Of a DNA stretch of 64,000 nt, positions 10,892 to 28,792 are shown piece by piece. The DNA comes from Gemmatimonadaceae bacterium. GTDB taxonomy: Bacteria; Gemmatimonadota; Gemmatimonadetes; Gemmatimonadales; Gemmatimonadaceae. The translations under genes and the position numbers were made by a program. A model generated the notes under the pieces. That model ran no database searches. It worked only from the letters and a program-made list of their open reading frames with translations, and was not told the DNA's origin. The first letter of the stretch is position 1; each line of letters starts with the position of its first letter. Location: NCBI GenBank assembly GCA_025934775.1, contig JAICWO010000005.1, positions 1 through 64,000 on the forward strand, read 5' to 3'.

Positions 10892-12001
10892 TTACTCGCC
10901 TTTGACGCCGAGGCCCTTCACGCCGGCGTAGATCCTGGCGTTGTCCGGGCCGGTGACGTGAATCATCCCGAGCGCGCCCTGGTTGAAGGCGCGGAAGATC
11001 GAGTGGTCGACGATCATGAGATCGCCCGGCTGCTCGACGCCGAATTCCACGATCGTGGATCCGCCGGCGGGGATGAGCGTCGTCTGCACGTTGTGCTGCG
11101 TCGCGACCGTCCCACCCTCGCCATACACGTTGTCGAAGATCTCGCCGATGACGTGGAAGGAGCTGGTGAGGTTCGGGCCCGCGTCGCCGACGAACAGGCG
11201 CACGCGCTCGCCGACCTTCGCCTGGAGCGCCTTCGCGCCGGCGATGGCGCCGACCGCGCCGTTGAAGACGACGTACGTCGGCCGTTCTTCGATGCCTTTC
11301 TCCATGTCGAGCGTCTGCAGCCCGTGCTCGCCGAACTTGCCGGTCGTGTAGTACTCGCTCTGCATCACGTAGTACTCGCGATCGACTTTCGGCAGACCGT
11401 CCTTCGGCTGGACGAGGATCATGCCGTACATCCCGTTCGCCATGTGCATCGGGACGGGCGAGGTCGCGCAGTGATAGATGAAGAGCCCCGGATTCATCGC
11501 GGTGAACCTGAAAATGGACTCGCTGCCGGGAAGCACCATCGAGACCTTCGCGCCGCCGCCCGGGCCGGTGACGGCGTGCAGATCGATGTTGTGCGGCATC
11601 GTGTTGCCCGCGGCGTTCTTGAGGTGGATTTCGACGAGATCGCCTTCGCGCACGCGAATGAACTTGCCGGGCACGGATCCGCCGAACGTCCAGACGTTGT
11701 ACTCGACGCTGTCCGCGATCTGCACCGTCTTCTCGATGATGTCGAGATTGACGATGACCTTGGTCGCGTGCGTACGGGTGATCGGGGGCGGCACGTTGGG
11801 CGCGTCGGTGAGCACCGCGACCTCCTGGCCTTCGATCGGATCGGACGGCGTCCGAACCGGAATGCTTCCGCGGGACTCGGCGGCGTCGGCGCGCGTGCAG
11901 CTCGTCAGCGTCGCGGTCCCGAGCAGCGCCAGGCTCACCAGGGCGGCGGCGACGGCGGCTCGCTTCACGGTGTGGGCGGATTCGTGAACGGCGACCGGCA
12001 T
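10892..12001 (-). CDS. nirK: Copper-containing nitrite reductase NirK
   Basis: This 369-residue protein has a signal peptide ending in a lipobox (LTSC, C35), predicting a lipoprotein. It has two cupredoxin domains. Type 1 copper ligands are H137, C178, H186 and M191 ([24 protein letters not shown]). Type 2 ligands are H142, H177 and H333 (VDHSIF). The catalytic Asp (D140) and His (H283 in [11 protein letters not shown]) are both present. It should reduce nitrite to nitric oxide in the periplasm. The ATG at 12001 is chosen because the signal peptide begins there; the open frame runs 63 codons further upstream without protein-like sequence. It is followed by nirV and preceded 205 bases upstream by a SulP gene on the same strand. 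Confidence 0.92.
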
Positions 12002-12108: not shown

Positions 12109-12206
12109 AGTCCCGGCGATCGTCGAAGTCGGCGCTGTGCCTGAAGCGCTGTGCGGCTTTCGCTGTGGCGCGCGTCGGGGAAACCACCACCCGGCGCGCG
12201 GGCCGG

Positions 12207-13841
12207 TCAGGCGGCCGCTGCTTCCAATGCCTTGGCGATGGTCGGCACCACGTTCGCGCGCCCCACCTCGTCCATCAGCTCGGAGCGCTCGAGCGCGGCC
12301 AACGGCTGCGAGTGCACGTCCGACAGCACCACGTGCGTGCCCTCGCGGCGGCAGCGGCGGACCACGTCCTTGAGGACGTGCATCCCGGTCGAATCGAGCG
12401 CGCCTACGTCGCGCATGCGGATGATCAACACGCGCGGACGCTCCGACAACTGGCTCAACGTCTCCTTGAAGACCTCGGCGGCGCCAAAGAAGAATGGGCC
12501 GCTGATCTCGAAGACGCGGACGTCGTGCGGGATCTTCCCGCGCCACGCGGCGGCGTCGTCGTCGTCCGACTCGTCGTCGAGGCCGTGCGCGATGAGGCTC
12601 ACGCTGGTCGTCGTCGCCATGCGTCGAATGAACAGGAACGACGCGAGCACAAGCCCGACCGCGATGGCGACCGTGAGATCGACCAGCACCGTCAACCCAA
12701 ACGTCGTGAGCAGCACCGCGACGTCGCTCTTGGGCGACCGCAGCTCGGCGCGGAACGTTCGCCATTCGCTCATATGATACGCGACGATGACGAGGATGCC
12801 GGCCAGCGTCGCGAGTGGAATGAGCGCGGCGTAGCGTCCAAAGAAGAGCGTCACGAGCAGCAGCGTGAGCGCGTGCGTCATTCCGGCGATCGGCGTGCGG
12901 CCGCCGTTCTTGACGTTCGTCGCGGTGCGCGCGATCGCGCCCGTCGCGGGGATGCCGCCGAACAGCGGCGACGCGACGTTCGCGATGCCTTGCGCGATGA
13001 GCTCCATGTTCGAGCGGTGGCGGCCGCCAATCATCCCGTCCGACACGACCGCCGACAGCAGCGACTCGATCGCGGCGAGCATCGCGATCGTGAACGCCGG
13101 CGCGACGAGTCCCGTCACCTGCTCCACGCTGAGATGCGGGAGTTGCGGGTGCGGAATGGCGCTCAGTGAGCCGAACCGCGAGCCGATCGTCTCGATCGGC
13201 AGGTGCAGCATGTGCGCGACGGCCGTCGTCGCGATGAGCGCGACGAACGGGCCGGGGATGCGGCGGCTGATCGCCGGCCACACGAGAAGGATCGCGAGCG
13301 TCAGCGCGGCGATGGCGATCGCCGCCGGGGTGACGTTCGACGCATTCGCGGCGAACGCCGCCCACTTCGGCAGGAACGCGGCCGGCACCACGCCCATGCG
13401 CAGGCCGAACAGGTCCTTGACCTCGCTCGAGAAAATGATGACGGCGATGCCGCTTGTGAATCCTGTAATGACAGGATGTGGAATGAACTTGATCACGCTG
13501 CCGAGCTTCGCGAGCCCCATGATCACGAGCAGGACGCCCGCCATGAGGGTCGCCACGGTGAGCCCATCGATGCCGTACTTCTGCACGATTCCGTACACGA
13601 TGACGACGAAGGCACCGGTCGGCCCGCCGATCTGCACCCGCGATCCCCCGAACGCGGAAATCAGAAAGCCGGCGACGATCGCCGTCCACAGCCCGGCGCC
13701 GGGCGTGACGCCGCTCGCGATCGCGAACGCGATCGCGAGCGGGATGGCCACGATGCCGACGATCACGCCGGCGGTGACATCCTGGCTGAATTGCGCGCGG
13801 TCGTACGCGCGAAGGGTGGTGAAGAGTTTGGGAACGAGCAC
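12207..13841 (-). CDS. SulP-family anion permease with STAS domain
   Basis: This is a protein of about 544 residues from a GTG start ([15 protein letters not shown]). It has many transmembrane helices typical of SulP/SLC26 transporters, including the SulP signatures [11 protein letters not shown] and [12 protein letters not shown]-terminal STAS domain (about 430-540, [13 protein letters not shown] and [13 protein letters not shown]) carries the conserved DSTG loop. Relatives move sulfate, bicarbonate, nitrate or other anions; the substrate cannot be read from sequence. An in-frame TTG at 13895 would add 18 residues but reads through a C11 tract. A palindromic operator lies just upstream. Position before nirK hints at an oxyanion role, but this is weak inference. 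Confidence 0.85.
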
Positions 13842-13848
13842 GGCGCGC

Positions 13849-13859: not shown

Positions 13860-13901
13860 AAGAAGGCCGAGCGAAAGCAATGGTTCGCCGCGCAACGAGT
13901 C

Positions 13902-13942
13902 TGTCAGGAATTGCCTGACAGGTCATCGGGGTTCGCCTGACA
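13902..13942. promoter_or_regulatory. Palindromic operator with extra half-site (SulP/porin intergenic region)
   Basis: A perfect 7-bp inverted repeat, TGTCAGGAATTGCCTGACA (13902-13920), is followed by another half-site CCTGACA at 13936-13942, exactly 22 bp (two helical turns) after the first CCTGACA. It lies in the 300-base divergent region between the SulP gene and the porin. A second element of the same design and spacing occurs at 16512-16552, upstream of the multicopper oxidase, which argues for a shared transcription factor. Confidence 0.65.
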
Positions 13943-14140
13943 CGCCGCGGTGAATGCGTGACGCGGCGTCTCGGGTTGTCGGGGCTTCACCTACAAAAAA
14001 ACCAGCGCATCCCGACGAAACGTCGGCTCATTACCCGACGGAGCGCCGATTTGAGCAGCCGTAGCTTCTCGTCAGTTCGAGCGACTTCACCGCCGCGTTC
14101 GCGGCACTGCATCGCCCGAGTCCCGACCGGAGAACCCGCT

Positions 14141-15562
14141 ATGCCAACCCTCAAGACGCTCACCATCGCCGCCGCGGCCACGCTCATTGCGGGCCTCGCG
14201 GTGGCGCAGCAGCCCGCGACGACGCCAGCGAACGGAACGATCGCGACGAGCGGCGCGCCCGCCACGGTCGCCGCGAAATCCGACAGCGCGAAGCCGGACA
14301 GCGCGAAGAAAACCAATCCGCAGTCGGTGAGCCTCTATCGACCCGCCGAGATCGATCACATCCGTCCCGCGGACATCCGCGGCCTCAACATGTTCGAGCC
14401 GCCCAAGAAGAGCACCGTGCCGTTCACGGGGTTCACGCTTTCGTTCGGCGGCGCGTTCACGCAGGAATTCCAGGGCCTCGCGCACGCCAACAGCGCGCTG
14501 CCCGCCGTCACGAACGGCGTCAATGCGAATCAGCTCATCGCGATCGGCCACGGCTTCAACAACGCCGTCGCCAATCTCAACGTGAATGCGCAGATCGCGC
14601 CAGGGATCCGCGTGGCGATGACGTCGTACCTCTCGGCGCGCCATCACCAGGAGAGCTGGGTCAAGGACGGCTACTTCCTGATGGACGAGTCGCCGATCCA
14701 CACGCCGCTCCTCGACGCGCTCATGAAGAACGTCACGCTCAAGGTTGGCCACTTCGAGATCGACTACGGCGATGACCACGCGCGGCGGAGCGACAACGGC
14801 AACTCGATGTTCAACCCGTTCGTCGGCAACTCGATTCTCGAGGCGTTCACGACGGAGATCGGCGCCGAGGCCTTCTACCGCCCGGGCGACGCGATCGCGA
14901 TGCTCGGCGTGACCGGCGGCGAAGTGCACGGACAGGTCACCGGCCCAGGTACGCGCACGGCCTCGGTGCTCGGCAAGCTTGGTTTCGACACGAAGCTCGA
15001 TGAGAACGTGCGCGTTCGGCTGACGGGCAGCTTCTACTCCAACAACAAATCGGCGAGCAACACGCTCTTCACCGGCGATCGCGGCGGCTCGCCCTATTAC
15101 GATGTGCTCGAGAACACCGCATCGACCGAGCAGAACAACGCGTGGTCGGGCGAGATCCGCCCGGGCTTCACGAACAAGGTCAACGCCGAGGTGCTGAACC
15201 CGTTCGTGAAGATCGGTGGTCTCGAGTACTTCGGCAGCTACGAGACGGCGCGCGGCGGCGCCTTCGCCGAGCCGAAGCTTCGGAACCTGCGCCAATTCTC
15301 GAGCGACGTGGTCTATCGCTTCGCGAGCGAGAAATTCTACGCCGGCGCGCGCTACATCGCGCTCGACGGGCAGATGCTCTCGAAGGTGTACAGCGATCAG
15401 AACGTGAATCGCTGGCAGCTCGGCGGCGGCTGGTTCGTCACGCCGAACGTGCTCGCCAAGGCGGAATGGGTCACGCAGAAGTACAACGACTTCCCCGCGA
15501 ACAACATTTACGACGGCGGCAAGTTCAACGGCTTCATGATCGCGGGCGCCGTCGGCTTCTAG
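14141..15562 (+). CDS. Outer-membrane beta-barrel porin
   Basis: This 473-residue protein has a signal peptide (LTIAAAATLIAGLAVAQQ), an Ala/Lys/Asp-rich linker, and then a region of alternating amphipathic strands ending in the aromatic C-terminal residue (AGAVGF) typical of outer-membrane barrels. It resembles phosphate-selective or carbohydrate-type porins in general character, but I cannot assign a solute. The ATG at 14141 has GGAGA 8 bases upstream and starts the signal peptide directly. A strong terminator follows at 15591. It is divergent from the SulP gene across the palindromic operator, so the two may be co-regulated. Confidence 0.75.
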   Translation: MPTLKTLTIAAAATLIAGLAVAQQPATTPANGTIATSGAPATVAAKSDSAKPDSAKKTNPQSVSLYRPAEIDHIRPADIRGLNMFEPPKKSTVPFTGFTLSFGGAFTQEFQGLAHANSALPAVTNGVNANQLIAIGHGFNNAVANLNVNAQIAPGIRVAMTSYLSARHHQESWVKDGYFLMDESPIHTPLLDALMKNVTLKVGHFEIDYGDDHARRSDNGNSMFNPFVGNSILEAFTTEIGAEAFYRPGDAIAMLGVTGGEVHGQVTGPGTRTASVLGKLGFDTKLDENVRVRLTGSFYSNNKSASNTLFTGDRGGSPYYDVLENTASTEQNNAWSGEIRPGFTNKVNAEVLNPFVKIGGLEYFGSYETARGGAFAEPKLRNLRQFSSDVVYRFASEKFYAGARYIALDGQMLSKVYSDQNVNRWQLGGGWFVTPNVLAKAEWVTQKYNDFPANNIYDGGKFNGFMIAGAVGF

Positions 15563-15590
15563 CTCGATCGCAGCCGCGCACTCGCTCGAC

Positions 15591-15623
15591 GAATCCCTGC
15601 CGGACACTGTCCGGCAGGGATTC
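15591..15623 (+). terminator. Strong hairpin terminator after the porin
   Basis: Arms GAATCCCTGCCGGA (15591-15604) and TCCGGCAGGGATTC (15610-15623) form a perfect stem of at least 14 bp, 28 bases after the porin stop. The following sequence is only weakly U-rich (GGCGTTT). Confidence 0.75.
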
Positions 15624-15791
15624 GGCGTTTCAGGTCAGGGATTCTCCGTCGATCGGAACGCGGAAGGCGGACACAAAATCGGCCGTTCGCCGACATATCC
15701 GGCGCGCTCGAAATCCGATCTTCACGTCAGTTCGATGACGCAGCCGCGGCCGACCGGCGCGTGGCGTCACCGAGAGATCGAGGGAGACTCT

Positions 15792-16421
15792 ATGAAGATC
15801 GCCGCCCGCTTCGTCACTACCGCGCTCGCGCTGGCCGCCGCTGCCGCCGGCGCGCAGAATACCGCCCGCGTGAACGTCGCCACCGACAGCAAGCTGTGGA
15901 TCGATGGCACGTCCAACCTGCACGCCTGGAGCTGCAAGACCGACAAGCTCGACGCCGCCATCGATCTGGATGCGGCCGCGGCGACGTCGTTGAACGTCGC
16001 GACGCCCAATGCGGTGAAGAAGGTCGAGGTGAAGATCCCCGTGAAGGCGCTCCACTGCAATCACGCCGGGATGGACGGCAATGTTTACAAAGCACTCAAG
16101 GGCGATCAATCGGCCGAGATCAGCTACATCATGGCGACGCTCGAAGCGGTGCCGGGCAGCAAGGACCAGGTGACGCTGAAGACGACCGGCACGCTCACCG
16201 TCGCCGGAAAGGCCAACCAGATCAGCATGGAGATCGAGACGACGCGCCTCGCGGATGGCACGCTGCGCGCAACCGGCTCGGTGCCGGTGAAGATGACCGA
16301 CTTCGGCATCCAGCCTCCGACCGCGATCTTCGGCCGGCTGAAATGCGGCGACGAAGTGAAGGTGAACTTCGAGCTGAACGTGGGAGCGAAGGCGGTCGCC
16401 GCGGCACTGAACGATCGCTGA
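15792..16421 (+). CDS. YceI-family periplasmic protein
   Basis: This 209-residue protein has a signal peptide (about residues 1-21). The mature part matches the YceI lipocalin-like barrel: SKLWIDGTSNLHAW near the start, KVEVKIPVKALHC in the middle and VPVKMTDFGIQPPTAIFGRLKCGDEV near the end. YceI proteins bind polyisoprenoid or amphiphilic ligands in the periplasm; the physiological role is often unclear. The ATG at 15792 is preceded by AGGGAGA. It lies between the porin terminator and its own terminator at 16441, so it is probably monocistronic. A sequence resembling the operator half-site (TTCGCCGACAT, 15687-15697) is upstream. Confidence 0.88.
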   Translation: MKIAARFVTTALALAAAAAGAQNTARVNVATDSKLWIDGTSNLHAWSCKTDKLDAAIDLDAAAATSLNVATPNAVKKVEVKIPVKALHCNHAGMDGNVYKALKGDQSAEISYIMATLEAVPGSKDQVTLKTTGTLTVAGKANQISMEIETTRLADGTLRATGSVPVKMTDFGIQPPTAIFGRLKCGDEVKVNFELNVGAKAVAAALNDR

Positions 16422-16440
16422 GCAGCGGGGGAGGGGTGCA

Positions 16441-16487
16441 GCGCGAGGGGAGCGTCGGGGTCCGAAACCCCGGCGCTCCCCTCGCGC
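16441..16487 (+). terminator. Long hairpin terminator after the YceI gene
   Basis: Arms at 16441-16460 and 16468-16487 pair almost perfectly over 20 bp around a 7-base loop (TCCGAAA), 20 bases after the YceI stop. There is no clear U-tract. The hairpin insulates the YceI unit from the following oxidase operator. Confidence 0.75.
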
Positions 16488-16511
16488 CGTCTTAGCCTCA
16501 GCTCGCCCGCA

Positions 16512-16552
16512 TGTCGGGAAATGCCCGACGGGATTTCCTCCTTCGCCCGACA
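16512..16552. promoter_or_regulatory. Palindromic operator with extra half-site upstream of the multicopper oxidase
   Basis: TGTCGGGAAATGCCCGACG (16512-16530) is an inverted repeat followed by half-site CCCGACA at 16546-16552. The distance between the two right half-sites is 22 bp, identical to the element at 13902-13942. The centre (AAWTG) and the TTCGCC context before the extra half-site are also shared. It lies 64-104 bases upstream of the oxidase start. Confidence 0.65.
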
Positions 16553-16615
16553 TGGGCAAACCCCGACAACCCCGAAATTCCTCCACGTAGCCCCCAACCT
16601 GGACTCGAGCTGACC

Positions 16616-17671
16616 ATGTCAGAGATTCTCAAGAGCGTCGCCACGCGCCGTGCATTCCTCCGCGACAGCGCCAAGGTCGCGCTCGCCGCCGGTGTCGCGA
16701 CCGCGTGCAAGCAGGACGCGTCCGCCACCACCGTGCGGCAATCCGTGGCCGCTCATCCCGCCGCTGCGGGTGGCGCACACGATGCGGCGGCAGCGGCGCT
16801 CGCCAACGCCGACGCGATGGACGCGATGCACGAGAAAAGCATCAAGGCCTTTCCCGCGAAGACGTCGGGCAAAGGCAATCAGGTGCTCGCGCCGAAATTG
16901 GACAAAGGCGTGAAGGTGTTCGAGCTCACCGCCAAGAAGATTCAGTGGGAGACCGAGCCGGGGCACTTCGTCGAAGCGTGGGCGTACAACAACCAGGTGC
17001 CCGGACCGCAGATCCGGGTGAGGCAAGGCGAGCGCGTTCGCGTGATTCTTCACAACGAGCTGCCCGAATCGACCGCGGTGCACTTCCACGGACTCGAGCT
17101 GCCGAACGCGATGGACGGCGTCCCCTACATCACCCAGTCGCCCGTGAAGCCGGGGCAGAAATTCACGTACGAGTTCGTCGTGCCGAACGCCGGATCGCAC
17201 ATGTACCACTCGCACCACGACTCCGCGAAGCAGGTTGGACTCGGCCTCCTCGGCGCGTTCATCGTGGAGCCGCGCACGCCGACGCCGGCCGAGAACGTCG
17301 ATCACGATTTCGTGTTCGTGCTCAACGACGGCCCGCACGGCTACACCTTCAACGGCAAGAGCTTTCCCGCCACGGAGCCGCTGGTCGCGAAGCTCGGTCA
17401 GAAGATTCGCATTCGTTTCATGAACGAAGGCATGATGATCCACCCCATGCACCTGCACGGGATGCACATGACGGTGATCGCGAAGGACGGCTGGCCGCTG
17501 TCGAATCCGTGGCGGTGCGACACCCTCAATGTCGCGCCGGGCGAGCGGTGGGACGTGATCGTCTCCTGCACGAACCCGGGCACGTGGGCGTTTCACTGCC
17601 ACATCCTGCCGCACGCGGAATCCGAGCATGGGATGTTCGGCATGGTCACGGCGCTCGTGGTGCAGAAATAA
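16616..17671 (+). CDS. Two-domain multicopper oxidase
   Basis: This 351-residue protein has a Tat-type signal (TRRAFLRDSA) followed by a hydrophobic stretch ending at a Cys (C31), possibly lipidated. Domain 1 carries trinuclear-cluster histidines HFH (156-158) and HSH (198-200) but lacks a type 1 copper Cys. Domain 2 has HPMHLH (276-281) and HCHILPH (327-333) with a Met near 340, so the type 1 site is in domain 2. This is the type C arrangement of trimeric two-domain oxidases. It should couple oxidation of an organic or metal substrate, possibly Cu(I), to oxygen reduction. It is preceded by a palindromic operator and followed closely by a two-component system. Confidence 0.85.
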   Translation: MSEILKSVATRRAFLRDSAKVALAAGVATACKQDASATTVRQSVAAHPAAAGGAHDAAAAALANADAMDAMHEKSIKAFPAKTSGKGNQVLAPKLDKGVKVFELTAKKIQWETEPGHFVEAWAYNNQVPGPQIRVRQGERVRVILHNELPESTAVHFHGLELPNAMDGVPYITQSPVKPGQKFTYEFVVPNAGSHMYHSHHDSAKQVGLGLLGAFIVEPRTPTPAENVDHDFVFVLNDGPHGYTFNGKSFPATEPLVAKLGQKIRIRFMNEGMMIHPMHLHGMHMTVIAKDGWPLSNPWRCDTLNVAPGERWDVIVSCTNPGTWAFHCHILPHAESEHGMFGMVTALVVQK

Positions 17672-17702: not shown

Positions 17703-18785
17703 ATGACGACCGCGATTGGCGTGAACACCGAGTCCTCTCGCCGCACCACGCGGCCGGGTCGCGGACGTCCGGTGGCGACGGCGCGCCCGCACATCCGGCT
17801 TGCCGCGCTGCGCGTACCGCTCGTGGCGAAGCTCCTCGGCGCGAACGTCCTCGTCGTGGCGCTCCTGTGTGGTGTGTGGCTCGCGCACGGCGGAATGCTC
17901 TCGGCGTGGGCCGCGGCGGCGATCGTGGCCTCGATCGTCCTGTACTTGGCGCTCGTCGTCGTGGCGTTGCGCCCGATTCACGATCTCGAAACCGTGGCCG
18001 CACGACTCTGGCACGGCGATTTTGGCGCGCGCGTCGAGAAGTCGCTCGTCGCCGACCAGCAGGTGCTCCGCATCGGATCGATGTTCAACATCTTGCTCGA
18101 CGGTCTCGCGTCCGATCGCGCGCGCATGCGTGCGCTCGCGACCGAGGTGATCGCGGCCGGTGACCGGGAGCGGGCCGCGATCGCGCGCGAGCTGCACGAC
18201 TCGACGGCGCAGCGCATCGCGGCGCTGGTGCTCGAGCTGTCGGTGGCGGCGCGGAATGCGGCGGATCCCGACGCCGCCGAGCGAATGAGCAACGCGCGCG
18301 ACGCGGCGAGCGCGATTCTCGAGGAGGTGCGGCTGCTGTCGCAGAGCGTGCACCCCGCGGTGCTCGACGACCTGGGACTGGGCGCCGCGCTCCAGAAGAT
18401 GGCACGCGACTCGTCGAGCGGAACCGGGATCGACTTCGACGTCGACGCTCGGCGGCTCGTCACGCGACTGCCGCGCGACGTCGAGGGGGTGTTGTATCGT
18501 ATCGCGCAGGAAGCGGTACGGAACGCGACGCGGCATGCGTCGCCACGCCACGTCCACGTGACCGTCGACGCGGACCGCGACGTCGCGACGCTGCAGGTGC
18601 ACGACGACGGCGTCGGATTCGACCTGGCCGATGCGCAACGCCGCCGTCCCGGATTGGGGCTCACATCGATGCGCGAGCGCGCCGCGCTGGTCGACGGCTG
18701 GATCGAGATCAAAACCGCCCGAGGCAACGGCACGACGGTGACCGCCGTCGTGCCGGTAACGCCCACACTTGACGCGCTATATTAG
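17703..18785 (+). CDS. Sensor histidine kinase (NarX/UhpB type)
   Basis: This 360-residue protein has two transmembrane helices (about 43-62 and 66-90) with almost no loop between them, a HAMP-like segment (LRPIHDLETVAARLWHGDF), a HisKA_3 dimerisation domain with phospho-acceptor His (ARELHDSTAQ, H165) and a C-terminal HATPase domain (EAVRNATRHA, DDGVGFD, GLGLTSMRERA). With no periplasmic sensor domain, it probably senses within the membrane or through partners. It lies 8 bases upstream of its response regulator and 31 bases after the multicopper oxidase, so it may control the copper/nitrite genes. Confidence 0.9.
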   Translation: MTTAIGVNTESSRRTTRPGRGRPVATARPHIRLAALRVPLVAKLLGANVLVVALLCGVWLAHGGMLSAWAAAAIVASIVLYLALVVVALRPIHDLETVAARLWHGDFGARVEKSLVADQQVLRIGSMFNILLDGLASDRARMRALATEVIAAGDRERAAIARELHDSTAQRIAALVLELSVAARNAADPDAAERMSNARDAASAILEEVRLLSQSVHPAVLDDLGLGAALQKMARDSSSGTGIDFDVDARRLVTRLPRDVEGVLYRIAQEAVRNATRHASPRHVHVTVDADRDVATLQVHDDGVGFDLADAQRRRPGLGLTSMRERAALVDGWIEIKTARGNGTTVTAVVPVTPTLDALY

Positions 18786-18793
18786 GAGTCGCC

Positions 18794-19456
18794 ATGACCG
18801 GAGATGTCATTCGAGTAATCCTTGCTGACGACCACGCCGTCGTCCGCGCCGGTCTCAAAGCCGTGCTCGGGGCGGCGAAGGACATCGACGTCATTGGGGA
18901 AGCGAGGAACGGGCGCGAAGCCGTCGCGATGGCCGAACGGTTCAATCCGGACGTCGTGATCATGGATCTCGGAATGCCGGAGCTCGATGGCACGGCGGCG
19001 ACCAAGGAGATCGTCAGCAAGGGGCTCGCGGCGCGCGTGCTCATTCTGACGATGCAGGCGGAAGAGGACTATCTCGTGCCGCTGATGGAGGCTGGGGCGG
19101 CGGGCTATCTCGTGAAGAGCGTCGCCGATCGCGAGCTCGTCGACGCGGTGCGCGCGGTCGCGCACGGCGACGTGTACGTGCGCCCGGCCGCGGCGCGGGT
19201 GCTGGCCAAGAATCTCACGAGGAAGGATCCCGCCGCGATGGAGCGCGAGCGGTTCGAGAAGCTGACGCAGCGCGAACGTGACGTGCTGCGACTCGTCGCC
19301 CAAGGCTACTCCGCACCGGAGATCGGCGAGAAGCTGTTCATCAGCCCGAAAACCGTCGATACCTACAAGCAGCGTGTCCAGGAAAAGCTCGGGCTGGCGC
19401 ATCGTTCCGACTATGTGCAGTTCGCGTTGAGGCTGGGTTTGCTCGCGGAGACGTAG
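18794..19456 (+). CDS. NarL/LuxR-family response regulator
   Basis: This 220-residue protein has an N-terminal receiver with acidic pair DD (12-13), phospho-acceptor D58 (VVIMDLGMP) and the conserved Lys in LVKSV. The C-terminal LuxR helix-turn-helix (LTQRERDVLRLVAQGYSAPEIG) binds DNA. It is the cognate partner of the upstream HisKA_3 kinase. Its stop is 2 bases before the TTG of the next kinase gene, so the three are co-transcribed. The shared operators near 13.9 and 16.5 kb are possible targets, but this is not shown. Confidence 0.92.
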   Translation: MTGDVIRVILADDHAVVRAGLKAVLGAAKDIDVIGEARNGREAVAMAERFNPDVVIMDLGMPELDGTAATKEIVSKGLAARVLILTMQAEEDYLVPLMEAGAAGYLVKSVADRELVDAVRAVAHGDVYVRPAAARVLAKNLTRKDPAAMERERFEKLTQRERDVLRLVAQGYSAPEIGEKLFISPKTVDTYKQRVQEKLGLAHRSDYVQFALRLGLLAET

Positions 19457-23715: not shown

Positions 23716-23815
23716 AGCCGGGCCGTCGGGAGAATGCCGCGCGTAGTTGTGATGAACCCCCGACAGTGAGCACCGCGTGAGTCGATGAGGTTCAGGTCGA
23801 CCTCTCACCAGTCTC

Positions 23816-24616
23816 ATGGGAATCGCGGTTCGCGCGGTTGAATCGATCGGCTCGAAAACGCTCCGCGCTCTGCGCGCCACGGGGCCCAATGCCCGTTTCG
23901 TCGGCGACGTGCTCGCGTCGGGGCGCGACGCGCGGACGTGGCTTGGGCAGACGATGACCCAGATGCGCCGCCTCGGAGTGGATTCGCTGCCGATCGCGGC
24001 GTTCATCGCGCTCTTCACCGGCATCGTGCTCGCGCTCCTCGCGAGCTACTCCTTCACGGGCGCGGTGCCGCTCTACTTCGTCGGCACCCTCGTCGAGAAG
24101 ACGGTGACGCTCGAGCTGGCGCCGGTGCTCACGGGGCTCGCCCTCGCCGGACGGGTCGGCGCCAACATCGCGGCCGAGCTGGGCACGATGCGCGTGACCG
24201 AACAGGTCGACGCGCTCGAGACGCTCGGTTACGACCCGGTGTCGTTCCTCGTGCTGCCGCGGGTGGTCGCGGGCGTGGCCATGTTTCCGGTGGTCGTCGG
24301 CGCGGCGATGCTCGTTGCCATGGTCGCCGGCGGAACGACGTCCGTGCTGCTGCTGCATCTCTCGTCGCCCGAATTCCTCAAGGGCGTGCGCCTGTTCTTT
24401 CAGGTGTTCGACGTGGAATACGGCCTCGTGAAGTCGGCGAGCTTTGGCGCGGCGGTCACGCTCGCCGGCTCCGCGTGCGGTCTGCGCGCGGGCGGGGGCG
24501 CCGTCGGTGTCGGCCGCGCGGCGACGTCGACCGTCGTCTACTCCGCGATCTGCATCCTCGTCCTCGACGCGTTGTGGGCCGTGACGTGGCTGCTCGGCCG
24601 CGAGGCCGCGCCATGA
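23816..24616 (+). CDS. mlaE: MlaE-type lipid ABC transporter permease
   Basis: This 266-residue protein has five or six transmembrane helices. MlaE hallmarks include LALAGRVGANIAAELGTMRVTEQVDALETLGYDP (spanning about residues 115-150) and a C-terminal GLRAGGGAVGVGRAAT segment. MlaE is the membrane core of the system that moves phospholipids between inner and outer membranes. The next gene, mlaD, overlaps its stop codon (ATGA). The ATPase MlaF, normally encoded alongside, is not in this cluster and must be supplied from elsewhere if the system works. Confidence 0.9.
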   Translation: MGIAVRAVESIGSKTLRALRATGPNARFVGDVLASGRDARTWLGQTMTQMRRLGVDSLPIAAFIALFTGIVLALLASYSFTGAVPLYFVGTLVEKTVTLELAPVLTGLALAGRVGANIAAELGTMRVTEQVDALETLGYDPVSFLVLPRVVAGVAMFPVVVGAAMLVAMVAGGTTSVLLLHLSSPEFLKGVRLFFQVFDVEYGLVKSASFGAAVTLAGSACGLRAGGGAVGVGRAATSTVVYSAICILVLDALWAVTWLLGREAAP

Positions 24617-25551
24617 GACGGAACAACGATGCCCTCGTCGGCGCGGTGGTCGTCATCGTCGTCGTGGCGCTGGTCGCCGCGATCGCGTGGGTGAAGCAAT
24701 CCGATCTCGGCGGAACGCAGCGCGACGTCATCGCGCACTTTAGAGATGTTGGAAACACCCGCGTGGGCAACGCCGTCGTGATCCGGGGTGTGGTCGGCGG
24801 GCGGATCGACGCGATCGAGCTCGCGCCGGATGGCTGGGTCGACGTCCGCATGAAGCTCGACCCCGCGGCCCGGCTGCCCTCCGAGCCCGTGGTGCTGCTG
24901 AGTGAATCGAGCTTGTTCGGCGACTGGCAGGCGACGATCGTGGAGCGCCGCTCGCTTCCGTCCGACGCGGCGCTGCGCGAGGCGATCGACGACGCCTCGC
25001 ACGACGGGCGGGCGCTCCCCGGCGCGTCGCTGCCCGGCATCGGCAAGCTCACGGCCGTGGCGGGACAGATCGCCGGCGACGTCGCGAGCGTCGCGAGCCG
25101 CGTCGGCACCGCGTTCGATGATTCGGCCGCGCGCGAGCTCCGCACGTCCATCCGCGACGTATCAGAACTCTCATCGACGCTGCGCCGCGTGGCGCGGGAC
25201 CATGCCTCCGACCTCGACACGCTCTCGGGCCAACTGCGCGTCGCCGTCGCCGCGCTCCAACGCGCGTCGCGCAGCGTCGAGACGACGTCGGGCCGGATCG
25301 ACTCGGCGACGAATTCCGACGAGGCGAGGCGGCTCGTCCAGAACTTCGCCGCGAGCGCCGACGAGCTGCGGCATGCCGGTGCCCAGGTGAGAGATCTGGC
25401 CGAGCGCCTGCGCACGACGCAGGCGCGCCGCTCGCCGCCGACCTGCGCGCCAACCCGAAGAAGTACGTCTCGGTGCGGCTCTTCTGACCTCCGGGAATCT
25501 CGGACAAGAATTCGGACCTTCGCCGACGCTTGCCGCGGCGCGCACTCGTGA
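24613..25551 (+). CDS. mlaD: MlaD-like substrate-binding protein, C-terminus frameshifted
   Basis: This 312-residue protein has an N-terminal transmembrane helix (about 8-26), an MCE/MlaD domain (FRDVGNTRVGNAVVIRGVVGG, about 43-110) and a long helical region (about 140-275). MlaD binds lipids in the periplasm beside MlaE. In the open frame, the last 40 residues are Arg/Ser/Cys-rich and unlike the family. The alternative frame just downstream reads ADLRANPKKYVSVRLF followed by TGA at 25485-25487, the normal MlaD ending. A 1-2 base indel therefore lies at about 25415-25436, and the native protein would end at 25487. Genuine mutation or sequencing error cannot be separated here. Confidence 0.8.
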   Translation: MRRNNDALVGAVVVIVVVALVAAIAWVKQSDLGGTQRDVIAHFRDVGNTRVGNAVVIRGVVGGRIDAIELAPDGWVDVRMKLDPAARLPSEPVVLLSESSLFGDWQATIVERRSLPSDAALREAIDDASHDGRALPGASLPGIGKLTAVAGQIAGDVASVASRVGTAFDDSAARELRTSIRDVSELSSTLRRVARDHASDLDTLSGQLRVAVAALQRASRSVETTSGRIDSATNSDEARRLVQNFAASADELRHAGAQVRDLAERLRTTQARRSPPTCAPTRRSTSRCGSSDLRESRTRIRTFADACRGAHS

Positions 25552-25600
25552 TCTTGTGGCAGCCGCGCGATAGGGCGCGGCGAATCAGGAGGATGGTGTC

Positions 25601-26875: not shown

Positions 26876-28792
26876 GTGAGCGAGTCGCTCGTGTCGCGTC
26901 GATACGCGCTGCTGTACGTCACGCTGGGCTTTCTCGGCGCGGGCGCCGCGGCGTCGATCGTCGACGCGGCGCTCGGACGTCGGGTGTGGCTCGTCGGCAT
27001 GATCGTCGCCGGGGCGCCGCTCGTGTGGCGGACCCTGGCTGGTGTGCTCCGCGGACGATTCGCGACGGACGTCGTCGCGTCGCTCTCGATCATCGGCGCG
27101 GTCGCGCTTGGCCAACCGCTCGCCGGTCTCGTGATCGTGTTGATGCAATCCGGTGGCGAGGCGTTGGAGCGCTACGCGGAAGGCCGCGCGTCGCTCGCCG
27201 TTCGCGAGCTGGAAGCCGCCGCTCCGCGGATCGCGCACGTCGTCCGCGACGATGGAGTCGTCGATACGCCGGCGTCCGAGGTCGCGGTTCACGATACACT
27301 GCTCGTCAGGCCCGGAGACCTGATCCCGTGTGACGGCGTCGTCGTGGCCGGCGAGTCCGAGCTCGACACCTCATCGCTGACCGGCGAGGCGCAGCCAAGA
27401 CCGGCCGCGCCCGGTGTGAACGTGATGAGCGGTATGCTCAATGGGTTCGGCTCATTCCAGATGCGCGTGAGCGCGCTCGCGGCGCGCAGTCAATACGCGC
27501 GCATCGTGGCGCTGGTGCGCGACGCGCAAACGAGCAAGGCGCCGATCCAGCGGCTCGCCGACCGCTACGCCGTCTGGTTCACGCCGATCACGCTCGCTGT
27601 CTGCGCGATCGCGGCGGGAACGAGCGGCGACTGGATGCGCGCCCTCGCCGTGCTCGTCGTCGCCACGCCGTGCCCGCTCATTCTCGCGACGCCCGTCGCG
27701 ATCATCGGCGGCATCAACCGCGCGGCGAAGCGATTCATCATCATCCGCCACGGTGCCGCGCTCGAGCGACTGTCCGCCGTCGACGCGGCGGTGTTCGACA
27801 AGACAGGCACCATCACCGTCGGGAAGCCGCGGCTGCACGCCGTGCGAGTCGCGGCCGGGTTCAGCCGCGCGCAGGTGCTGCGCGCCGCGGCGGCGGTGGA
27901 AGACCATTCGAGTCACTCCCTCGCGCGCGTGGTGGTGGAGGCCGCGAACGCGGAGGGCATCTCCGCGGATGCCGCATTCGAGATCGTTGAATCTCCGGGG
28001 CAGGGAATCAGCGGTGTCGTCGATGGGCACGAGGTCCGCGTCGGCGCGCGGGCGTTCGTCGTGCCCGCGTTCGACGACGATCCCGCGATGGTAGCGGCGC
28101 TGGAGCAGGCCCAACCCACGCTGCGCGCGTACGTCGTGATCGACAGGAAGTTGGCCGCGGTGCTCGAGTACGCGGACGAAGTTCGCCCCGAGCTGCCGCA
28201 CCTCCTGGCGGCGCTGTCGAATGCCGGCGTGCGCCGCGTGGCGCTGCTGTCCGGCGATCACGCACCCGTGGCGCGGGCCCTCGCGTCGCGAGTCGGAATT
28301 CATGAGAGCCACGGCGATCTCCTGCCGATCGACAAGGCGCGCTTCATCGAGCGGCTCCAGGCCGAGGGCTACGTCGTGTCGATGGTCGGCGACGGCATCA
28401 ACGACGCGCCGGCACTCTCCACGGCGGACGTCGGCATCGCGCTCGCCGCGCACGGCGGCGGGGTGACCGCCGAGGCGGCCGACGTCATCATCCTCGTCGA
28501 TTCGCTCGCGCGGGTGGGCGACGCATTGGAGATCGGCCGGCGCACCATGCGCATCGCACGACAGAGCATCTGGGTCGGCCTCGGGTTGAGCGGCGTCGCG
28601 ATGCTCGTCGCCGCATTCGGCGGCACCTCGCCGCTCGTGGGCGCGCTGGTCCAGGAGGCGATCGACGTCGCGGTGATTCTCAACGCGCTGCGCACGGCCG
28701 CCGCGCCGCGCGTCGAGCACGCGGCCGCGCCGTCGCCGACATCACCCCGGGAGATGATCGATGTACAGCGCATTTCGACGCTTCGCGCATAA
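26876..28792 (+). CDS. P1B-type heavy-metal-translocating ATPase
   Basis: This 638-residue protein starts at GTG. It has the full P-type core: actuator loop (SSLTGEA), membrane CPC metal site (ATPCPLILATP), phosphorylation site DKTGTITVG and hinge GDGINDAPAL. A histidine-rich stretch (EDHSSHSLARVV) corresponds to the SEHPLA-type nucleotide motif of this family. Unlike most copper or zinc exporters, it has no N-terminal metal-binding domain or Cys/His-rich tail. The substrate (zinc, cadmium, cobalt, manganese or copper) is not decidable from what is seen. It overlaps the iron permease gene by 32 bases and follows the stress protein by 3 bases. Confidence 0.9.
   Translation: MSESLVSRRYALLYVTLGFLGAGAAASIVDAALGRRVWLVGMIVAGAPLVWRTLAGVLRGRFATDVVASLSIIGAVALGQPLAGLVIVLMQSGGEALERYAEGRASLAVRELEAAAPRIAHVVRDDGVVDTPASEVAVHDTLLVRPGDLIPCDGVVVAGESELDTSSLTGEAQPRPAAPGVNVMSGMLNGFGSFQMRVSALAARSQYARIVALVRDAQTSKAPIQRLADRYAVWFTPITLAVCAIAAGTSGDWMRALAVLVVATPCPLILATPVAIIGGINRAAKRFIIIRHGAALERLSAVDAAVFDKTGTITVGKPRLHAVRVAAGFSRAQVLRAAAAVEDHSSHSLARVVVEAANAEGISADAAFEIVESPGQGISGVVDGHEVRVGARAFVVPAFDDDPAMVAALEQAQPTLRAYVVIDRKLAAVLEYADEVRPELPHLLAALSNAGVRRVALLSGDHAPVARALASRVGIHESHGDLLPIDKARFIERLQAEGYVVSMVGDGINDAPALSTADVGIALAAHGGGVTAEAADVIILVDSLARVGDALEIGRRTMRIARQSIWVGLGLSGVAMLVAAFGGTSPLVGALVQEAIDVAVILNALRTAAAPRVEHAAAPSPTSPREMIDVQRISTLRA

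Follow-up and report, generated by a model that had tools for sequence, protein, structure and literature searches.

A small gene island in a bacterial genome of 4.88 Mb, whose nearest relatives are Gemmatimonadaceae, carries a set of palindromic sites that we take, with a probability of roughly 0.83, to be the operators and promoters through which the NarL/FixJ-type response regulator (RR) encoded there at 18794 acts. The predicted targets are the operon of a multicopper oxidase (MCO), the histidine kinase HK1 and the RR itself, together with a porin-like gene, a YceI-domain gene and the SulP-nirK pair. All lie in the first 64 kb of contig C24, the stretch analyzed here and referred to as the window. 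The operator conserved across the Gemmatimonadota compared reads TGTMRGGgawtcCCYKACA, and its putative layout together with a promoter recurs through much of this phylum. A first-pass annotation of the window had picked out palindromes at 13902 and 16512 as sites of one regulator; the observation was right and weightier than stated there, and its interpretation was partly right. Gemmatimonadota are a common, little-studied soil phylum, and this genome has nirK. Neither a regulon nor a promoter code for the phylum turned up in the openly accessible literature that we searched, and here one regulator, its operator, a promoter geometry and a small regulon appear to be definable from sequence alone.

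Conservation at the response regulator operon

The exact core TGTCRGG-N5-CCYGAC (an 18-mer, no mismatch) is found twice in the genome, each time in the window, and is thus not scattered at random genome-wide. With as many as 3 mismatches allowed, the window holds 10 matches, equal to the shuffle mean of 10.19; because a loose search of this kind is uninformative alone and shows no excess, the case for real sites rests on conservation. Sites were scored with a symmetric position weight matrix (PWM1) built from 16 sites, at a threshold of 13 or more. As these 16 had been picked for fitting the motif, PWM1 is biased towards it, and for this reason two further batches of RR regions were fetched: batch 2, with 20 regions held out of training, and batch 3, with 35, of whose 21 positive regions three were training sites (L244, L261 and L274).

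The operator tracks the start of the RR operon, whose first gene varies among genomes and may be MCO, HK1, a PNPox-like gene or the RR. A site was present in 11/14 regions of batch 1, 16/20 of batch 2 and 21/35 of batch 3. For batches 2 and 3 together this is 37 of 55, with column-permuted motifs giving a mean of 0.44 and a maximum of 16, and among other predicted genes 36 of 553 have a site at the same threshold. Sites in the first 20 neighbourhoods lie upstream of MCO, porin, YceI, HK1, SulP and nirK. Searches over 179 family genomes, each protein at its own E-value limit, found orthologues of MCO in 40, the porin-like protein in 66, SulP in 86, NirK in 25 and RR in 143. Conservation upstream of orthologues held for MCO, where 21 of 30 upstream stretches score at least 13 and 9 fall below (strand fixed by tblastn). 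Tallies for NirK, SulP and porin, which included wrong-strand loci, were set aside.

The RR, which the first-pass annotation had singled out for footprinting, is the best candidate binder because its own operon has the site in most relatives. The case that it binds the operators and regulates itself is strong but indirect, drawn as it is from comparative data. Its domains (PF00072, 2.4e-26; PF00196, 1.5e-18) place it in the NarL/FixJ (LuxR-type) family, its neighbours in the PDB are VraR, NarL and DevR, and it stays under the NCBIfam equivalog cut-offs for MctR (164 of 300 bits) and for the GacA/UvrY type (161 of 280 bits). The recognition helix, KTV(D/E)TY, is almost invariant in the phylum. 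In L184, L186, L190 and L241-L247 (genus g2 and one other) it is KTVETY, with E replacing D; these loci have mostly weak sites or none, and some perhaps a 6-bp spacer. The fetched loci of RR relatives in Nannocystis (42-44% identity) held no site scoring at least 13, and the recognition helix there is different.

Half-site steps and a fixed -10 element

Downstream of each of its palindromes the first-pass annotation had reported a third half-site in TTCGCC context, 22 bp past the start of the right arm, and these are found at 13936-13942 and 16546-16552; the weaker half-site it saw within 15687-15697, before the YceI gene, is GCCGACA at 15689-15695. To generalize the spacing, 99 sites were reduced by 17 of ambiguous orientation and 2 near-duplicates to 80, and half-sites were counted at a threshold of 5.5 bits. 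Right-arm half-sites fall at +21 to +24 in 25 of them and at +43 to +46 in 29, with 0-3 at each other offset between 7 and 99, and five promoters place one at +65 to +67; an extra half-site at the expected steps is present in 63 of the 80. The equal helical spacing that had been proposed therefore stands (22, then 44-45 bp), but as steps of about 22 bp rather than a fixed +22. The idea of one regulator is likewise supported.

Copies in left-arm orientation are prominent downstream only at +11 (7/80). On the mirror side, left-arm copies upstream rise above the rest at +22 (5/80) and +36 (4/80), for which tandem palindromes account in part. Tandem full palindromes 22 bp apart occur at L178:12725/12747, L181:3414/3436 and L221:9559/9581, and are the half-site ladder filled out to dimer sites.

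Of these half-sites, the important one is the promoter-proximal copy, which is tied to the -10 element. It reads CCCGACAGA, in right-arm orientation, and lies 22, 45 or 67 bp downstream of the operator. At N21 after it, 28 bp from its first base, 54 of 63 promoters have a -10-like NANNNT, which is TANNNT in 30; the runner-up offset is seen in 11 promoters. Batch 3 alone gives 17/18, and the -10 element played no part in any selection of sites. The same preference appears in 1.2 Mb of sequence, where CCYGACD followed by TANNNT occurs 42 times at spacer 21 and 1-8 times at spacers 17-20 and 22-24; 33 of the spacer-21 matches are upstream of genes, 26 of them with the palindrome. The promoter alignment lacks a sigma70-like -35 where one would be expected. 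A further weak element, approximately AAGTTC, lies 9-15 bp upstream of the proximal half-site.

Genome-wide, a pattern search at 2 mismatches was too noisy for a regulon list (153/163 against 103/90 in the reversed control), and two profile models were used for the scan instead. Model R1, built from 14 promoters of other genomes with no sequence from the window genome, ranks 13976-14068, the porin promoter, top of the whole genome (E=1.3e-6). The match of model R2 at 16511-16580 is not independent, as its alignment (A2) has the window sequence twice. Across six genomes of the genus, strong profile matches are almost exclusively on the island's contig. A de novo expectation-maximization motif search of 350-bp upstream stretches, some of them wrong-side, returned coding-sequence patterns and was dropped.

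Proposed activation by the response regulator, and rival readings

From sequences, spacing and conservation, a scheme of binding and activation can be proposed. HK1 or another kinase would phosphorylate the RR, a dimer of which would then bind the distal palindrome. A second RR dimer, on the same face of the DNA, would occupy the proximal half-site and touch RNA polymerase there, replacing the -35 box and leading to activation; autoregulation would be positive. If the -10 element is placed at -12 to -7, about -40 to -34 would be taken up by the proximal half-site and the palindrome centres would fall near -65, -88 or -110. That this amounts to a promoter code of Gemmatimonadota, in which a half-site of an autoregulated NarL-type RR replaces the -35 element, the palindrome sits one to three 22-bp steps upstream and distance is tolerated only in whole double-turns, we rate at somewhat better than even odds. 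Such quantised spacing is a natural helical-phasing series and is relevant to how activators of the NarL type can get to RNA polymerase from varied distances. The presence of nirK, a copper oxidase, a metal P-type ATPase and stress genes suggests redox, nitrogen-oxide or copper stress as the theme of the signal.

Alternatively, the RR may act as a repressor that blocks the -35 region from its proximal half-site, where occupancy of about -40 to -34 could keep sigma away. The perfect 13902 palindrome is also near the SulP start; this reading is nonetheless unlikely, given the missing sigma70-like -35 and the in-phase full palindrome 65-110 bp upstream, a placement typical of activators such as ComA in the accessible part of its description (PMC4797271). 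Slightly less probable again is a dedicated sigma factor with CCCGACAGA-N19-TANNNT as its promoter, the palindrome being the upstream site of a separate regulator. The rigid spacing of proximal element and -10, the extra AAGTTC-like element and the 7 of 33 gene-upstream copies without a palindrome scoring at least 8 are what such a factor would leave, yet the proximal element is the palindrome's own right-arm sequence and comes at 22-bp steps, the palindrome is there in the great majority of those copies, and 21 bp would be a long spacer between a -35 and a -10 of the sigma70 type.

The RR could also be a mere neighbour, with Crp/Fnr, Rrf2/NsrR, CsoR or another NarL-type protein encoded elsewhere as the binder. 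Regulators of these kinds classically control nirK and copper genes, and candidate RRs are many (94 at first look in genome G000). We consider this improbable, as the site follows the RR operon despite changes of first gene, also outside the family, and the significant whole-genome promoter matches of the genus are nearly all in the RR island. Arms of 7 bp with a spacer of 5 are also unlike the CRP/FNR layouts, TGTGA-N6-TCACA or TTGAT-N4-ATCAA, as the first-pass annotation had pointed out. Chance palindromes in GC-rich intergenic DNA would explain a 3-mismatch count at the shuffle mean, but they have next to no standing against the offset and -10 results and a conservation that holds in genera outside training.

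Several observations count against control of these sites by the RR. Among the 55 RR regions of batches 2 and 3, 18 have no site scoring at least 13. These 18 include every one of the three loci from genera g9 and g11 (L237-L239), and their recognition helix is identical; the own-gene operator may have moved or been lost there. Beyond the family, at RR identities of 51-63%, only about 8 of 20 loci in other families of the phylum have a site upstream of RR or HK1 (list judged by eye). An extra half-site at the expected steps is missing from 17 of the 80 oriented sites, and no good -10 is seen to the left or to the right of the 13902 operator.

Parallels with known systems are partial. The Pho box of PhoB, an OmpR-type regulator, has TGTCA-type half-sites as direct repeats in 22-bp units, the last in place of the -35; the RR here differs in having a GerE (LuxR-type) DNA-binding domain. 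The site ascribed to NreC of Staphylococcus, TAGGG-N4-CCCTA, resembles the TGTAGGG-N5-CCCTACA variants seen here. In the portions of the NreABC literature at hand (PMC8139620, PMC5694512), the likeness extends to an RR with its cognate kinase, a GC-rich palindrome and nitrate/nitrite genes. The present system is unlike it in the spacer of 5, the extra proximal half-site and an HK1 without a Pfam sensor domain.

The closest system in its working is ComA of Bacillus subtilis, also NarL/FixJ-type, as far as the available part of PMC4797271 describes it. There, an upstream inverted repeat (optimal spacer 4, with 5 tolerated) is joined by extra recognition elements beside the -35, and the inverted repeat has been proposed to make a type I contact and the near site a type II contact; an inverted repeat with a further element near -35 is likewise found here. 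The near element of ComA is a direct repeat in upstream-arm orientation, TTGCGG-5-TTGCGG (RE3-N5-RE4), in the same source, whereas here it is in downstream-arm orientation, shifts by about 22 bp at a time, keeps a strict 21 bp to the -10 and has another sequence. Our promoter alignment shows no repeat of the element after 5 bp of the kind that ComA has. DevR/DosR of Mycobacterium and OsdR of Streptomyces, in the part of PMC5069765 available, are similarly autoregulated two-component RRs with sites clustered around their own gene and universal-stress genes among their targets; a universal-stress gene is a candidate target here too. The OsdR box there, AGGGCCGATCGGCCCT (16 nt), is unlike the present operator, and no fixed half-site/-10 rule was seen for OsdR in that part of the source. 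Nor is HK1 known as a haem sensor.

Proposed operators and promoters, and the genes of the window

Features are collected in Table 1. Composite scores add palindrome, proximal element and -10, and are read against a null maximum of 21.7 from 40 simulated 64-kb strands; as PWM1 includes four window sites, those of the window are partly non-independent.

Table 1. Proposed regulatory elements and genes of the island, with window coordinates
Feature	Position	Strand	Remark
NirK copper nitrite reductase	10892..12001	-	TIGR02376, 360 bits, above the cut-off of 296.3
Candidate separate nirK operator	12173..12191	-	between SulP and nirK; weak, 14.3; no good -10
SulP/STAS transporter	12207..13844	-	start inferred by aligning orthologues
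Candidate SulP -10, TTGCTT	13875..13880	-	N21 position; weak, -10 score 0.7
Palindromic operator TGTCAGGAATTGCCTGACA	13902..13920	-	perfect palindrome around 5 bp
Second palindrome CATCGGGGTTCGCCTGACA	13924..13942	.	imperfect; 22 bp from the 13902 site
Porin operator TGTCGGGGCTTCACCTACA	13977..13995	+	overlooked by the first-pass annotation
Porin half-site CCCGACG	14011..14017	+	offset +22
Porin promoter-proximal half-site CCCGACGGA	14034..14040	+	offset +45; composite 37.3
Porin -10, TAGCTT	14062..14067	+	21 bp past proximal half-site
Porin-like outer-membrane protein	14141..15562	+	porin name from the first-pass annotation
YceI operator GGTCAGGGATTCTCCGTCG	15633..15651	+	degenerate; orthologous site L177:4111
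YceI proximal half-site GCCGACA	15689..15695	+	offset +44; composite 26.7
YceI -10, GATCTT	15717..15722	+	exactly N21
YceI-domain protein	15792..16421	+	
MCO-HK1-RR operon operator TGTCGGGAAATGCCCGACG	16512..16530	+	outermost pair T/G mismatched
MCO proximal half-site CCCGACA	16546..16552	+	offset +22; composite 37.2
MCO -10, GAAATT	16574..16579	+	N21
Multicopper oxidase (MCO)	16616..17671	+	opens the RR operon in this genome
HK1, HisKA_3 histidine kinase	17703..18785	+	proposed partner of RR
RR, NarL/FixJ-type response regulator	18794..19456	+	Response_reg and GerE; proposed binder of the operators
Candidate universal-stress gene operator	25488..25506	+	palindrome 10.1
Universal-stress half-site GCCGACG	25522..25528		offset +22; spacing judged by eye
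Universal-stress -10, GATCTT	25550..25555		spacing judged by eye

Both 19-bp palindromes reported by the first-pass annotation are in place, but only that at 13902 is perfect. Nor do they share an identical design, since 16512 has a full promoter downstream while 13902 is without a -10 rightward and suits SulP leftward. In the leftward reading, the right arm of 13902, CCTGACAGA, would supply the proximal element for SulP, and the neighbouring palindrome, which includes the third half-site formerly ascribed to 13902 (CCTGACA), would serve as the distal site, for a composite of 28.6. The rightward reading reaches 30.0, yet its -10 term is negative (-1.9 bits), and the 13902 palindrome is best taken as the SulP operator. 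With nirK and SulP to its left and the porin-like gene, YceI, MCO, HK1 and RR to its right, 13902 lies inside the island, so that the two palindromes only loosely flank it. Its reported position before SulP and porin is apt for SulP; the full porin promoter belongs to the operator at 13977, which had been missed along with the YceI palindrome and the -10 elements. The YceI orthologue site came from a comparison with orientations set by hand.

For nirK, the same place in relative G004 (L176:3178) has a stronger operator, 19.3 against 14.3. The universal-stress gene is probably also under RR control; its candidate operator falls under the composite list cut-off. The porin-like protein had no match in Pfam or NCBIfam, and a Pfam search of HK1 gave no sensor domain. 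No nitrate reductase was among the genes annotated in this analysis.

Directly 3' of the porin-like gene, 15587-15627 holds a 20-nt inverted repeat (95%, 1-nt loop), probably a terminator or processing hairpin. Before the MlaE-like gene at 23816, positions 23759-23792 contain a strong proximal element, CCCGACAGT, with GAGGTT near N21 and no palindrome. Immediately after the universal-stress gene lies a heavy-metal P-type ATPase (26876-28792; TIGR01525, above cut-off), relatives of which recur within the islands of other genera.

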